Virus record (IMG/VR): IMGVR_UViG_3300046747_000672
Location: 49,763 to 113,762 of that record
Length of the DNA stretch: 64,000 nt
Strand: one strand, 5' to 3'
Origin: a virus
The notes under the pieces were generated by a model, which worked only from the letters and a program-made list of their open reading frames with translations, did not search any database and had not been told where the DNA came from. Position 1 is the stretch's first letter. Each line of letters begins with the position of its first letter. Position numbers and translations under genes: made by a program. Shown here piece after piece: positions 7,082-53,292 of the stretch.

Positions 7082-7972
7082 CTACTCGATGTCCTGGCGA
7101 TCGTCGCTGCCCGACAGCGGCTCTTGCTTCTTTGGCCGTTGCACTTTCTGCGTCGCAGGCTCCGCTGCAACCGGAGTCGCGAGCAGCGTCGCCTCGAGCT
7201 CCCTCGGGCTGCCAGGTACCAGCGCTGCCGGCGTCGTGACGTCAGACAGCACTGTGCCCGTGGTGTCGACGATCTCTTCCGACGTCGACATGCCGAGCGA
7301 CAACTCCGGAGCGAAGACGCGCGTCCAGAAGCCGCCGGAGCGGTACATGAGCATCAGTTCGGGCATCGTCTTCCACTTCGACCCGTTTCTCGAGTACCAC
7401 CCCTCCGCTTTCGCCATCGCGATCGTGACGAGCGGCCCGACGCACTCCTCGCCCGACTCGCGATCCTTCGCCACGGCACGGCACCCCCATTCGTCGGTGC
7501 CCTCCTTGCCCTGCCATCGGAAGCGAATCGGCGAGAACCGTCCGCTGCTGTTGACGGTCCCGATCAAAAACTGCGATCGCCACCCGGGGCGCCCGTGGAT
7601 GATGTCCAGGTTGGTCATCACCATCAGAACCGACGCGCCGACGCGGCTCGCCATCTCGATGGCGATGAGGCAGTTCGGGATGTTGTTCTGGTACTGCGTC
7701 GGGACCATCGTGCTCGCCGACAGCGCATTCGCCATGCGGTAGGCACCCTTGAAGTTGGCTTCGCTGGCGAACGCGTTCAACGCGCGCTGCGCCTCGTCGC
7801 CCGTCGGCGGGGCCATCATCGCGACATGCGCGGCGGCGCCCGCCTGAGCGGAAGCCGAAGCCGGAACGGGCGCTTGGACGCCTACGTCAGCCATCCCGTT
7901 CGATGAGACGGAAGGCTTCGGAGCCTCCGCCGGAAGTCCTTGCGATTGAGTCACGTCGATCATTCCTTTCAT
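7082..7972 (-). CDS. recT: RecT-family single-strand annealing protein
   Basis: About 296 residues. ATG at 7972 overlaps the upstream stop; ATG 7963 and GTG 7954 (AAAGGA nine bases before) are also possible. After an Ala/Pro-rich linker of roughly 55 residues the RecT core begins, ending in the typical MYRSGGFWTRVFAPELSLGM and EEIVD. RecT proteins anneal complementary strands, working with the neighbouring 5'-3' exonuclease in phage recombination. The Thr/Pro-rich tail is likely disordered. Confidence 0.85.
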   Translation of the reverse strand: MKGMIDVTQSQGLPAEAPKPSVSSNGMADVGVQAPVPASASAQAGAAAHVAMMAPPTGDEAQRALNAFASEANFKGAYRMANALSASTMVPTQYQNNIPNCLIAIEMASRVGASVLMVMTNLDIIHGRPGWRSQFLIGTVNSSGRFSPIRFRWQGKEGTDEWGCRAVAKDRESGEECVGPLVTIAMAKAEGWYSRNGSKWKTMPELMLMYRSGGFWTRVFAPELSLGMSTSEEIVDTTGTVLSDVTTPAALVPGSPRELEATLLATPVAAEPATQKVQRPKKQEPLSGSDDRQDIE

Positions 7973-45344: not shown

Positions 45345-45857
45345 GTGGAAGAGAAACGCGAGTCTTCGGACTCACGCGCGAATGGTCATCCCTTCTTCGA
45401 GAAGGCGACCGATCGAGTCGAGTACGTCATCGGACTGATGACGGATCGGGTCTGGAACCCGGACACATCGAGGTCTCTTCAGAAGGCGCTGTCCGAGGCA
45501 TGGGGCGTGACCCAAAGCACGATCCGCAACTACTCGGCGGAAGCGAGCCATAGCATGCTCGGCACCGTCCGCGAGCGCCGCGCCGAACTCGCGAAGCAAG
45601 CAGTCGAGACGTTGCTCGAAGTCGCCAAGTCCGAGGTGCAGATGCCGGGCGACCGTGCCGCGAAGGTTTCGGCGAGCAAGGTTCTCCTCGAGTTTGCCGG
45701 CGTCGACAGGCCGGACGAGGACAAGGTCCAGAAGCACATCGTTGCTGGCATGGGCGAGGCGACGCCCGACAAGGCGCGTGAAGTCGTGAGAGCGCTTTTT
45801 GGAGACATCGTCCCTCAGTCAAGCCCAGCCGAACTGGAAGATAGCGGTAAGCGCTGA
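45345..45857 (+). CDS. Terminase small subunit-like protein
   Basis: 170 residues from GTG at 45345. An N-terminal HTH-like segment (LQKALSEAWGVTQSTIRNYS) is followed by a helical oligomerisation-type region (RAELAKQAVETLLEVAKSEV, then ASKVLLEFAGVD). Overlaps the large subunit start by about 59 bases. This order fits DNA-binding TerS; identity is from position and motif, not a full family match. Confidence 0.65.
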   Translation: MEEKRESSDSRANGHPFFEKATDRVEYVIGLMTDRVWNPDTSRSLQKALSEAWGVTQSTIRNYSAEASHSMLGTVRERRAELAKQAVETLLEVAKSEVQMPGDRAAKVSASKVLLEFAGVDRPDEDKVQKHIVAGMGEATPDKAREVVRALFGDIVPQSSPAELEDSGKR

Positions 45858-47259
45858 AGCGCGACGCCGCGTTCTTGCGGCGTACCAGTCTGCCCTGCCA
45901 GAGAATGAATGGGCTGCCGTTCGGGCCTGGTTTCACACGTTCTACCCATTCCAGCTCGAATGGCTGCTCGATCCGTCGCGATTCGCGGTTTGCAACAAGA
46001 GCCGGCAGATCGGCATGTCGCACACGACGGCGGCCCTCGTCGTCCTCTGGGCAGCGATGCTCGGCGAGACGACCACGCTCATTTCGATCGGACAGCGCGA
46101 AGCTGACGAGGTCCAGGCCAAGGCCGAGAAGCACGCAAAGGCTCTCGTGGCGCTCGGATCGAACTGGGCGCGCGCAAGGCCTCACGGTGAGCAGCTGCGC
46201 TTCGCAAGCGGCGGAAGGATCATCGCGGTTCCGAGCTCGAGCGGCGGCCGATCCTTCTCCGGAAACGTCTTCTTGGACGAGTTCGGTTATCTAGAACGAC
46301 CCGCGGAGATCTGGGACGCCGCGGCGGCCGTCACTCTCCATGACGGGAAGTTCCGCGTCGGCAGCACGCCGAACGGTGTCGGGAACGACTTCCATTCGTT
46401 CTGGAGCAACCCGATCAAGAATCGGGGGTGGAGCAAGCACGAGTTCCCGATCGAGCGAGCCATCGCCGATGGGATGCGAGTCGACATCGACGACTGCTGG
46501 AAGATGGCCCGTGGCGACACGCGGCTGTTCGATCAGCTCTTCCGCTGCCAATTTCTGGGCGGCAACCTCCAGTACATTCCGTCGGAGTTCGTCGAGGCGG
46601 CCTCCGTCTCCGACCTCTACACCTACGAGGGGGAATACTTCGCCGGTCTCGACATTGGCCGCACCGTCGATCGCACGGTCCTCGTCGTCGTGCGGAAGCT
46701 TCCGGACGGAATGCGGATGCTTGCGTGGGTCGCGAGCTGCAAGCGCACCGACTCCGACCAGCTTGAGGCCCTCGTGCAATGGGGCTTCGACACGTTCAAA
46801 CTGCGCCGCCTTTGCGTGGACTCGACGGGCATCGGCGCATTTCCGGCCGAACGCATGCAGAAGAAGCACGGTCAGCTACGAGTGGAGCCGGTGAACTTTT
46901 CTCAGCCTGTCAAAGAAGATCTGGCGACGACGCTCTACAGCGCATTCTCCGAGAAGACGCTCAGGATCGCGAAAACGACGTCGGCCATTAGGTTGCCTCA
47001 CGGTACGACCGCGTCGTTGGTGCGTTCGCTCGAGCCGAACGCCGCCGAACAGCTCCGCCAAGACGTTTGCGCTATCCGCCGCGAGGTGACGTCTGCGGGC
47101 AACATTCGGTACGACGCGCCGCACACGGACGAGGGCCACGCGGACAGCGCCTGGGCGCTCGCGTTGGCGCTCCATGCGTGCGGCAAGCCGCCGGGGAAGA
47201 AGCACGAGATTGTTCCGCAGTCCATGCACGCCCAGACCGGCGGGCGGCTGATCGTCTGA
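45799..47259 (+). CDS. terL: Terminase large subunit (ATPase and nuclease)
   Basis: 486 residues from TTG at 45799 (start uncertain). ATPase motif SRQIGMSHTT (68-77) is a Mu gp28-type Walker A with Met in place of the usual Lys; Walker B is VFLDEF (Asp 160, Glu 161). The RNase H-like nuclease has GLDIG (Asp 285), VDSTGIG (Asp 341) and HADSAW (Asp 449). It packages DNA into the procapsid and cuts the concatemer. Confidence 0.88.
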   Translation: METSSLSQAQPNWKIAVSAEARRRVLAAYQSALPENEWAAVRAWFHTFYPFQLEWLLDPSRFAVCNKSRQIGMSHTTAALVVLWAAMLGETTTLISIGQREADEVQAKAEKHAKALVALGSNWARARPHGEQLRFASGGRIIAVPSSSGGRSFSGNVFLDEFGYLERPAEIWDAAAAVTLHDGKFRVGSTPNGVGNDFHSFWSNPIKNRGWSKHEFPIERAIADGMRVDIDDCWKMARGDTRLFDQLFRCQFLGGNLQYIPSEFVEAASVSDLYTYEGEYFAGLDIGRTVDRTVLVVVRKLPDGMRMLAWVASCKRTDSDQLEALVQWGFDTFKLRRLCVDSTGIGAFPAERMQKKHGQLRVEPVNFSQPVKEDLATTLYSAFSEKTLRIAKTTSAIRLPHGTTASLVRSLEPNAAEQLRQDVCAIRREVTSAGNIRYDAPHTDEGHADSAWALALALHACGKPPGKKHEIVPQSMHAQTGGRLIV

Positions 47260-47265
47260 GTCATC

Positions 47266-48684
47266 ATGGAGCAACTTCCGGGAGCGGCTGAAGCGAACGG
47301 CCTCGCCGCGAAGCGCATGTCGCCGCGGGCCAAGCATCTTGCGATGCTCGAGCGCTGGGTCGAAGGCAGCCAGTACGAGGGTATGGCCGACTGGTTCGCG
47401 GACGCCCCAATCAGCGAGAAGGCGCCGTGCTTCGTCGAGCCGATCGTGGCCGATAGCATCGAGAGCCACGTCGACATGGTTCTCGGCGAGGGACGCTTCC
47501 CGGCGATCACTTCGAGGCCTGCGGAGGACGAGAGCGAAGACGACGACGGCGACCCGGAGGACGGGCTCAACGAGGACGACTCGGCGCGGCTCGACAAGCT
47601 GGTCTCCGGCGCCGCCGAGCAAGCGCGCTTCCGCGCCCTCTGCCGCGAGGCCTTGTCGATGGCGATGGGATGCGGGTCGAGCTGCGCCATCTACGGCGCG
47701 CGCGACGGCAAGCTCTTTGGCGACACCGTGAAGGCGCGGTGGTGCCAGCCCGAATTCGGAATCGACGGACGGACGGTCGTCAAGCTCGTCATCGAGTATC
47801 CGTACGTCGACACCTACCAAGACGTCGATGGGACGTGGCGGGTGCGTGCGCGCGTGTTTCGCCGCGAGCTCGACGAGACGAAGGACGTCACCTACAAGCC
47901 GGCCGAAGCCAGGGACGAGAAGGTCGACTGGAAGGGCTCGGTTGCGACGCGCATCGAGCACGGACTCGGGTTCTGCCCGGTCGTCTGGTACCCATTCTTC
48001 CGCGGCGCAAGCATCGTCGGTCAGATCGACGGCCACGCGCCGCACGCGAACTTGCTCGACGAGATTCGAGCGCATGACACCGCTGTCTCCCAGCGTCACC
48101 GCGCCGCGCTCTATGCGGGCGACCCGCAATGGACCGAGTGCGGCGTCGAGCCAGGCTCCAACCCGTCCGACGTTGGCAAGATCACGCCGATGCCGATCAC
48201 CCAGCACGGCGGTCCGCCGAGTGCGGACAACCCGGTCGTCGGTTCGTTCCCGAATTCAGGAAGCGCGCAGACGAACGGGCGCAAGAAGCACCCGGGGACT
48301 GTCTGGCAGTACGAGAACGAGAACGCCAAGGTGGATCTCCACCAGCTCTCCGGTGACGCGCTGAAAGCCATCAGCGAGAACGGGACCGACCTGCGGCTCA
48401 AGATCATGCAGGCGCTCGCCTACGTGCCGCTCGACCCGGAGTCGAGCCACGTCATGCGAGGGAGCCTGTCCGGCAAGGCGCTCGAATCGCTTCGCGAGCG
48501 GCAGTTGAATCGCGACGATCGCATCCGGGACGACTTCGGCGACGGCTTCATGAAACCGAGCGTTCAGATGTTGCTGCGCATTTGTGCGTCGAAGGCCAGC
48601 GGGCTCCGCGTGCGCGGGCTCAAGGCTGCCGCGCCGATTCTGGCGAGGTTCACGCAAGGGGACACGCTTCGTGCCGTGGCTTGA
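47266..48684 (+). CDS. Portal protein, main part
   Basis: 472 residues from ATG at 47266. Structure typical of portal proteins: a helical N-terminus, acidic loop, long beta/alpha core and a C-terminal segment with LRLKIMQALAYVPLDPESSH, MRGSLSGKALESLRERQLNR. The usual C-terminal WGP.F/Y block is missing here and appears in the next frame. It forms the dodecameric head vertex through which DNA passes. Confidence 0.8.
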   Translation: MEQLPGAAEANGLAAKRMSPRAKHLAMLERWVEGSQYEGMADWFADAPISEKAPCFVEPIVADSIESHVDMVLGEGRFPAITSRPAEDESEDDDGDPEDGLNEDDSARLDKLVSGAAEQARFRALCREALSMAMGCGSSCAIYGARDGKLFGDTVKARWCQPEFGIDGRTVVKLVIEYPYVDTYQDVDGTWRVRARVFRRELDETKDVTYKPAEARDEKVDWKGSVATRIEHGLGFCPVVWYPFFRGASIVGQIDGHAPHANLLDEIRAHDTAVSQRHRAALYAGDPQWTECGVEPGSNPSDVGKITPMPITQHGGPPSADNPVVGSFPNSGSAQTNGRKKHPGTVWQYENENAKVDLHQLSGDALKAISENGTDLRLKIMQALAYVPLDPESSHVMRGSLSGKALESLRERQLNRDDRIRDDFGDGFMKPSVQMLLRICASKASGLRVRGLKAAAPILARFTQGDTLRAVA

Positions 48685-49027
48685 GCCGAGCCTATCGCTT
48701 CGCTGGGGGCCCTATGCGAAGCTCGATGGCGACGAGCAGAGCAAGATCGTAACGGCGACCATCGCGGCCAAAGACGCCGGCATCTGCACGACGCGTCAGG
48801 CGGTCGAAAAGGTGGCTCCCGTCTTCGGCACCGAAAACGTGGACGCCGTCCTCGCGGCTCTTGAGAAAGAGGCCGACGAGCGCGCAAAGAAGATGCTCGA
48901 CCAGCAGATGACGCTCGAGCACTCGATGGCGAAACTTGCAAACGGAAGCGAAGCTCCTCCAGGCGGAGAAAAAGGCAAGGACGCGAATCCGAGCGGCGGC
49001 GACGCTGCTGCTTCTGGCGCCGCGTAG
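48671..49027 (+). CDS. Portal C-terminal domain in a second, overlapping frame
   Basis: 118 residues from GTG at 48671, +1 relative to the portal and overlapping its last 14 bases, with AAGGGG 10 bases upstream. It reads LRWGPYAKLDGDEQSKIV, ATIAAKDAGICTTRQAVEKV, a wing/barrel segment that ends most portals. The portal appears split between two frames by a natural frameshift, a real separation or a sequence error. The Lys/Glu/Ala-rich tail continues. Confidence 0.6.
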   Translation: MPWLEPSLSLRWGPYAKLDGDEQSKIVTATIAAKDAGICTTRQAVEKVAPVFGTENVDAVLAALEKEADERAKKMLDQQMTLEHSMAKLANGSEAPPGGEKGKDANPSGGDAAASGAA

Positions 49028-49523
49028 GTACGCCGAGAGTGACTTTGCCGAATCCGTCCTCCTCGCGCGTCTCAACTCGGCCCGCGCGGGCGTAGCCGCT
49101 GCGGACGCGGCACTCGCCAAACTGAAGCTTGAGCCGATGACGCTGTCGGTCGTCAAGGCGGGCGCAGAGGACTACGGTCGCGCAAACGTCGTCGCCAGGA
49201 ATTACTCAACATGGCTGAAGACGTCGCCTCTCGGCGATCTGTCGGCCGATGAGGCGCGAGCGCTCGTCCTGCGGCGCGCGGACCGAATCGCTGCGACGGA
49301 ATCCGCGACCGCGTTCAACGACGGTCTACGGGCTGAAGCGCAGAAGGTGGCACGCGACCGAGACGTGACGCTCTACCGCACGTGGAGCGCGCTCGGCGAC
49401 GCGTGTCCGCTCTGCTGGGACAATCACGGCGACCGCGTGCGGATCAACGAATCCTACCGGAGCGGCGAGGAACCAGGACACGTCCACGTGTCTTGTCGCT
49501 GCTCAGAAGAATACTCGACATGA
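48936..49523 (+). CDS. Phage Mu F-like minor head protein
   Basis: 195 residues from TTG at 48936 (start uncertain, overlapping the previous frame). The C-terminal 70 residues have RIAATESATAFNDGLRAEAQ, YRTWSALGDACPLCWDNHGD and HVHVSCRCSEEY, the MuF/SPP1 gp7 signature with conserved Cys and His. Such proteins attach to the portal and may be injected with DNA. Confidence 0.75.
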   Translation: MQTEAKLLQAEKKARTRIRAAATLLLLAPRRYAESDFAESVLLARLNSARAGVAAADAALAKLKLEPMTLSVVKAGAEDYGRANVVARNYSTWLKTSPLGDLSADEARALVLRRADRIAATESATAFNDGLRAEAQKVARDRDVTLYRTWSALGDACPLCWDNHGDRVRINESYRSGEEPGHVHVSCRCSEEYST

Positions 49524-52139: not shown

Positions 52140-52173
52140 CCGGCAGCTTGCCGGGATGCCGGGGTCTGCCCGG
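52140..52173 (+). other. Tandem hairpins in the major capsid leader
   Basis: CCGGCA-GCT-TGCCGG (52140-52154) and CCGGG-GTCTG-CCCGG (52159-52173) form two consecutive hairpins 24 bases before the capsid ATG. No T-run follows. They may mark an mRNA processing or stability site for the most abundant structural protein, or act as a weak terminator. Confidence 0.4.
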
Positions 52174-52197
52174 TCTCTTGAAACAAGGAAAGCACCG

Positions 52198-53292
52198 ATG
52201 CCCATCTCCCGTGCACAACTGCCCGAAGAGTTCTTCGATCGAACCTCGGCAACGCTTCTGGCTCAGCCCGAGCCGCAGTACCTCTACGCGCGTCTTTTCA
52301 TGCGCGCGATGAACATTCAGCTCGGCCTCCCGACCACGCTCGGCCGCGCTGGCTATGAAATCGGCGGACAGGGCGCGCCATACACCGCAGCGGAGGCCGA
52401 CCGGCTGATGTTGTCGGATGACATGGCCACCGAGGTTTACGCCGCGAAGGCCGACTTCACCGGTGAGCCTGGCCACATCATGAAGTTCAACCGCCCGAAG
52501 TACGCCAACACGACGTACACGCAGGCGGTTCGCGAGGTCGGAACGAACCAGTCCGTCTCGACGACCCCGATCTCAGCGTCGAGCGAGCAAGCGCTTTTGC
52601 AAATCAAGCGCTTCGCTGGTCCGTACGATCAGGACAACGGCCGCGTCGCGCCGTACGGACTGGACGCGTTCGACGCTTCGATGGGCGTGCACGATCTGAC
52701 GAAGTTCGTCGGCACGCACTTGAAGCGCGACTTCCACCGCACACTCGACGCGTTCTGGGTGACGCTCGCCGACCTCGCGTCGACCACTGCCTACCCGTAC
52801 GGGATGTCAGCCGCGAACGACGCGACCACCAAAGGTCAGTTCCCGCTGACCTACGAGTTCATGTCGCGCGTGTCCAAGTCGATGGACGAGTCGAATCTGC
52901 CGACGCTCGGCGACGGGCGACGCATTCTCGTCGTGACCCCGACCGGGAAAAAGCAACTCAAGGACGACCCGCAGTTCGCGCGGTACGCCGAGTTCTACAA
53001 GGAAGCGAACCCGCTCTTCCCGGGGTGGTTCGGCAGCACGGCGGAGTTCCACTGCTTCATGTCGAACACGCTCACCATCACGTCGAACTCGTCGTCGATC
53101 AATATCCACAACGGGCACGCGATCGCCCCCGGCGCGTTCCTCGGTGGCCGCGGCAAGACGATCGATGTTCGCGCAGCGTCGGATGACAACTACGGCGAGA
53201 CCGCCAAGGTCATCTGGCTCGCGTACCTCGCCCTTGGCCTCGCCGACAACCGCTTCATCGTGAAGCTGTCCTACACGGAGGACGTCTCGTAA
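52198..53292 (+). CDS. Major capsid protein
   Basis: 364 residues from ATG at 52198, with AAGGAA eight bases before; an earlier start at 52156 would run through the hairpins. HK97-type composition with FARYAEFYKEANPLFPGWFG, RGKTIDVRAASDDNYGETAK and AYLALGLADNRFIVKLSYTE at the end. It follows the scaffold. It forms the icosahedral shell. Confidence 0.82.
   Translation: MPISRAQLPEEFFDRTSATLLAQPEPQYLYARLFMRAMNIQLGLPTTLGRAGYEIGGQGAPYTAAEADRLMLSDDMATEVYAAKADFTGEPGHIMKFNRPKYANTTYTQAVREVGTNQSVSTTPISASSEQALLQIKRFAGPYDQDNGRVAPYGLDAFDASMGVHDLTKFVGTHLKRDFHRTLDAFWVTLADLASTTAYPYGMSAANDATTKGQFPLTYEFMSRVSKSMDESNLPTLGDGRRILVVTPTGKKQLKDDPQFARYAEFYKEANPLFPGWFGSTAEFHCFMSNTLTITSNSSSINIHNGHAIAPGAFLGGRGKTIDVRAASDDNYGETAKVIWLAYLALGLADNRFIVKLSYTEDVS

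Follow-up and report, generated by a model that had tools for sequence, protein, structure and literature searches.

DNA enters the head of a tailed virus through a ring, the portal, which is among the most conserved machines of these viruses and is normally built from one protein. At the locus described here the portal reading frame stops before its usual C-terminal block, and that block lies in a second, overlapping frame. The question raised by this arrangement is whether the two parts are separate proteins that act together, one protein joined by a shift of reading frame, or a single gene broken by error. The answer reached below is that the locus very probably encodes a two-gene portal, in which the C-terminal crown would be translated separately, probably coupled to the portal body, and would assemble with it in trans.

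The portal locus

The window, which is the whole stretch of 64,000 nucleotides that was analysed, comes from a virus record of 113,762 bases. The features of concern, with positions counted from the first base of the window, are as follows.

45799 to 47259, plus strand: terminase large subunit (PHROG and Pfam Terminase_6N/6C matches), directly upstream of the portal
47266 to 48684, plus strand: portal body gene, 472 aa, with a TGA stop at 48682-48684 (PHROG portal match at E 6.3e-05, homologues, and the modelled fold of a relative and of the read-through product)
48656 to 48661, plus strand: Shine-Dalgarno-like AAGGGG, 9 nt before the GTG at 48671
48671 to 48684, plus strand: overlap of the body and crown genes, 14 nt from crown start to body stop
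48671 to 49027, plus strand: predicted portal crown gene, 118 aa, GTG start, +1 frame relative to the body, assigned the last core strand and the crown helices (conserved start and Shine-Dalgarno signal, C-terminal homology)
48704 to 48706, plus strand: anchor Trp codon of the crown block (RWGPY), the Trp being invariant in 29/29 rows of alignment A3
48936 to 49523, plus strand: head morphogenesis (Mu F-like) gene (PHROG E 3.1e-05; Pfam PF04233 below cut-off)
52156 to 53292, plus strand: major head protein (phrog_1357, E 3e-06)

As is characteristic of portal genes, the body gene adjoins the terminase large subunit gene, directly downstream of it, in the head module. Terminase, body, crown and head genes follow one another on the same strand and presumably share a transcript. 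A preliminary description made from the sequence alone had held that the portal frame stops at 48684 without its C-terminal block, and that this block lies in the +1 frame, behind a GTG inside the portal end with AAGGGG upstream. These claims are borne out: the early stop is seen both in the open reading frames (ORFs) and by comparison with relatives, the block is real coding sequence with homologues at the C-terminus of a one-piece portal (L024) and in a separate gene (L001), and the GTG and AAGGGG lie as listed. The open stretch of the +1 frame spans 48554 to 49027, and although the first start in the ORF listing is a GTG at 48584, the GTG at 48671 is the best candidate for the crown start, being the one with AAGGGG 9 nt upstream. 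The Mu F-like head gene overlaps the crown gene by up to 92 nt, its listed start (TTG 48936) being putative.

Distribution of the break among relatives

An alignment search yielded 157 candidate loci, of which the best 80 were taken; one of them (L004) was dropped as it lies on the same contig as L001. The remaining 79, together with the window, L001 and L003, make up the 82 classified loci of a survey that is not exhaustive. Body and block share one ORF in 50 loci, 28 loci are split, and four run off the contig before the block; the block of the split loci stands in the +1 frame in 21 and in the +2 frame in 7. Removal of near-copies (90%) and of the four undecided loci left 53 representatives, comprising 30 one-piece portals, 18 split with a +1 and 5 with a +2 relation. 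Nine further contigs reached from a more distant query were all one-piece.

Comparison with related phages, as had been proposed for this locus, returned the same break in L001 and L003. The closest relative, L001, has a portal 67% identical to that of the window and shares its break and its 14-nt overlap, with an ATG in the position of the GTG; in L003, a contig from a bacterial metagenome-assembled genome with about 47% identity, the break recurs with a 23-nt overlap and the second gene runs off the contig. Recurrence of the break in these two loci excludes chance and a base-call error. Overlap lengths among the split loci are 1, 14, 17, 20, 23 and 32 nt, with 14 nt also in L023. The single continuous polypeptide, crown included, that is a feature of portals is therefore interrupted in 28 of the 82 loci, the window among them.

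Among 298 bacterial genomes of the class to which the L003 genome belongs, the one positive was that genome itself. Searches of cultured phages with the portal of the window and three others returned only two Komagataeibacter records, and the crown of L010 had no match there. A single-sequence search of viral contigs for relatives of the crown gene found none, the gene being too divergent for back-translated patterns.

Several features of these loci stand apart from the break. The portals of L001 (3487-6296) and the window (45799-48684) are 67% identical, and their terminases are hardly related (27% over 93 aa), which marks a mosaic boundary between terminase and portal; the L003 terminase is related to that of the window (53%). 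Two one-piece portals are unusually large: that of L037 (4707-6920) has 738 aa, much longer than its kin, and that of L079 (5953-8370) has 806 aa, with a far C-terminus that we take to resemble a ParB/sulfiredoxin-type domain.

Conservation of the displaced block

The crown protein of the window is 50% identical to the C-terminus of the one-piece portal L024 (115 aa, E 1e-32) and 49% identical to the product of the separate gene of L001 (97 aa, E 4e-30). In 12 split pairs the block, read in its own frame, has pN/pS ratios of 0.17 to 0.83, with synonymous change near saturation in several pairs, compared with 0.15 to 0.48 for the body and 0.32 to 0.64 in four one-piece pairs. Read in shifted frames, the same block DNA of the split pairs gives 0.92 to 2.83. 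Two split pairs have relatively high block ratios (0.66 and 0.83), which counts against the two-gene explanation. Judged by these ratios, the block evolves as a protein in its own frame.

Profile matches are uneven. A PHROG scan took in 10 separate crown genes of relatives, and several of these match the C-terminal end of portal profiles: the L027 crown matches phrog_146 (377-472/587, E 6.5e-05), the L008 crown matches phrog_64 (448-528/547, E 0.0024), and the crowns of L014 (450-509, E 0.0069) and L018 (451-517, E 0.0094) match the C-terminus of the same phrog_64 portal profile. The L023 crown reaches a PHROG portal C-terminus at E 0.045. The best match of the L001 and L006 crowns is a head-morphogenesis profile, and neither the crowns of L005, L010 and L036 (E<=0.1) nor the crown gene of the window itself has a PHROG match.

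Initiation of the second gene

An ATG or GTG stands 10 to 12 codons before the anchor Trp in 22/23 split representatives. Any start codon within positions -7 to -12 of the Trp is found in 22/23 split and 7/30 one-piece representatives (Fisher test, with relatedness ignored). Only L014, of which L015 is a near-copy, departs from this pattern: neither has the usual start, and the L014 crown gene (7352-7735) probably begins at an ATG 74 nt ahead of the portal end, which would give it a longer N-terminus containing proline.

Ribosome-binding signals, scored as pairing of upstream bases with the 16S tail, average -5.10 over the 22 crown starts. Out-of-frame ATG/GTG controls from the same genes average -2.57 (sd 0.47), and none of 20,000 draws was as low as the crown starts, relatedness again being ignored; the portals' own starts average -3.24. 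The duplex energy at the crown start of the window is -7.6, against a mean of -2.36 for 14 control starts in the same gene. Individual signals range widely, being strongest in L008 (-10.5) and weak in L005 (-1.9), L006 (-0.4) and L033 (-0.4). The arrangement is that of an overlapping, separately started gene pair, with a conserved start codon and ribosome-binding site for the second ORF. Separate production of the two parts, by reinitiation or coupled initiation, which the preliminary description had offered as one possibility, is thus strongly supported by sequence conservation among relatives. Overlaps of 1 to 32 nt suggest that the second start is coupled to translation of the first gene.

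The same description had also offered a programmed +1 ribosomal frameshift, which would take place near the portal stop and yield a fused, full-length portal, perhaps beside the short one. The one-piece relatives indicate that a fused protein is workable, and in the window the open +1 frame reaches back 131 nt from the portal stop, an interval so long that the window alone could not decide between a frameshift and a separate start. Comparison with relatives gives this proposal little backing, and it is improbable. The frame relation varies among close relatives, being +2 in 5/23 split representatives, and the stops are preceded by no shared slippery codon or codon pair, so that the split loci have neither the conserved slippery sequence nor the constant frame relation of frameshift genes. 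The interval available for a shift, counted to the end of the portal stop, is only 4 nt in L019, 16 nt in L010 and L026, 19 nt in L013 and 26 nt in L005, L007, L011 and L016. A frameshift would also leave the conserved start codon and Shine-Dalgarno signal unexplained. Where the interval is long, as in the window, a low level of frameshift fusion may accompany the separate product.

Two one-piece loci, L052 (4874-6721) and L067 (571-2412), keep an in-frame ATG exactly where their relatives split. The upstream signal is weak (duplex energies -2.6 and -4.1, respectively), and an internal start giving an extra crown is possible in both.

Structural position of the break

A sequence search of the PDB returned no portal at E<=1, so that comparison of folds was needed. 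The one-piece portal L024, modelled from 50 sequences (pLDDT 88.3, pTM 0.82), aligns with SPP1 gp6 (7z4w) over 367 residues (model 16-535; Z 22.9, rmsd 4.0). For the window, the two parts were joined as one chain for modelling only; the read-through model has the same plan (pLDDT 81.5), with a gap in confidence at 466-468, which is the junction, and aligns with SPP1 gp6 over 358 residues (model 17-543; Z 22.0, rmsd 4.0). Both models display the clip-stem-wing organisation, long wing helix and tunnel loop of the portal fold, with Z up to 25.3 for L024 and 24.8 for the window.

Because the MAFFT alignment A2 misplaced the ends of split bodies into crown columns, the break was located from alignment A3 and the sequences themselves. 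In the L024 model it falls at about residues 458-462, between a helix (454-457) and a strand (469-471), and the strand is followed by three helices (480-495, 501-512 and 517-547). Several solved portals, including T7 and a P22 entry, match the read-through model of the window only as far as about residue 480 (479-483), where the strand ends. This suggests a strand belonging to the common core and a crown made of the later helices. On the evidence of the models, the likeliest product of the second gene is the crown together with its lead-in strand.

This position bears on a further alternative, in which the product of the second gene lies outside the portal ring, the body being crownless and the small protein having another role in the head. 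There is precedent for such a body, as the portal of phi29 is described in an excerpt of PMC4493910 as being without most of the crown. The block nevertheless keeps the lead-in strand common to many solved portals, which would be unexpected in a free protein with another role, and the constraint on it is about equal to that in one-piece relatives. This alternative is accordingly given a low probability, similar to that of a frameshift.

Evolutionary history of divided portals

The remaining alternative is that a normal one-piece portal, such as that of the 50 one-piece loci, was disrupted by a recent frameshift mutation or by a mistake in sequencing or assembly. It can safely be dismissed, and with it the error that had at first been allowed for, since 28 loci share the break at one position in the protein, in both frame relations and with differing overlap lengths, and the block is still under protein constraint.

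On a midpoint-rooted tree of portal bodies (53 rows), the distribution of split and one-piece portals requires at least five changes, three of which are forced by well-supported branches. A single clade of all split rows is rejected (p-AU 4.5e-10), as is a single clade of the +2 rows (p 2e-05), and L018 (+1) and L026 (+2) share one clade of four with 100/100 support. A 39-row set (100/98) contains every split row along with 16 one-piece portals, a mixture which indicates repeated formation, healing or exchange of the break at this one joint. A broader proposal, for which we would put the chances somewhat below even, is that the wing-crown joint is a recurrent natural fission point. The crown would then be a free subunit in several lineages, supplying the last core strand in trans, so that its number, timing or position could be regulated apart from the body; it might, for instance, serve as a movable gate above the tunnel loops.

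Proposed model of a two-gene portal

The two-gene portal preferred here is based on two conserved, separately started frames, on conservation at the protein level and on where the break falls within the modelled fold. The first gene would encode the body, and the second the C-terminal crown with the last strand, which joins crown to wing. The start and putative ribosome-binding site of the crown gene sit inside the end of the body gene. With the body stop (48682-48684) within 14 nt of these signals, ribosomes finishing the body would probably start the crown nearby, either by translational coupling or by direct initiation; we favour coupling over independent initiation. Both proteins would be made and would meet in the same ring, assembling in trans, with the crown adding its strand to the wing, presumably in a 12:12 ratio of body to crown.

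A naturally separate crown would mean that the portal tolerates a break in the chain between wing and crown, and that such a break was gained or lost on several occasions. Split portals would then offer a handle on a standing question, that of the role of the crown and of the link between its movement and the tunnel loops. They also carry a warning for annotation, as the body alone resembles a truncated portal and the crown gene, whose family matches are weak or absent, resembles an orphan.

Comparison with known systems

Neither a separately encoded crown nor a split portal is described in the open-access literature that was surveyed. A partial parallel is found in the tail assembly chaperones of Microbacterium cluster EA phages, where, according to PMC7302621, the second ORF is apparently expressed separately in some relatives; these are a different protein, outside the portal ring, in which frameshifting is usual.

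The nearest cultured relatives found are the Komagataeibacter phages phiKX1 and phiKX2, with 22.7% identity over 86% of L024, crown region included. In phiKX1, as in the window, the terminase lies directly upstream of the portal; the phiKX1 portal is annotated as one gene of 505 codons, whereas that of the window is split. Family profiles reach this group in part. Pfam PF05133 is matched by 7/50 family members at E<=0.01, L024 reaches a score of 18.3, below the curated cut-off of 25.5, and neither the window body, nor the read-through product, nor the window's own proteins match it.

With respect to the crown itself, an extract of PMC4493910 describes that of T4 as three helices with short turns between them, placed after the wing, and the crown of P23-45 (residues 377-436) is reported in PMC7234808 to shift by about 5 A and is proposed there to act on the tunnel loops. 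The block of the window, modelled as a strand and three helices, would likewise be a C-terminal crown after the wing, yet in T4 and P23-45 the crown is covalently continuous with the wing, unlike that of the window. Over the full length of the joined sequence, the modelled fold matches the SPP1 gp6-type portal (7z4w, 2jes; Pfam PF05133); gp6 of SPP1 is a single chain, whereas the crown of the window phage is predicted from a separate gene. By its modelled fold and its place in the genome the locus is a portal, yet one without the one-polypeptide feature of known portals.
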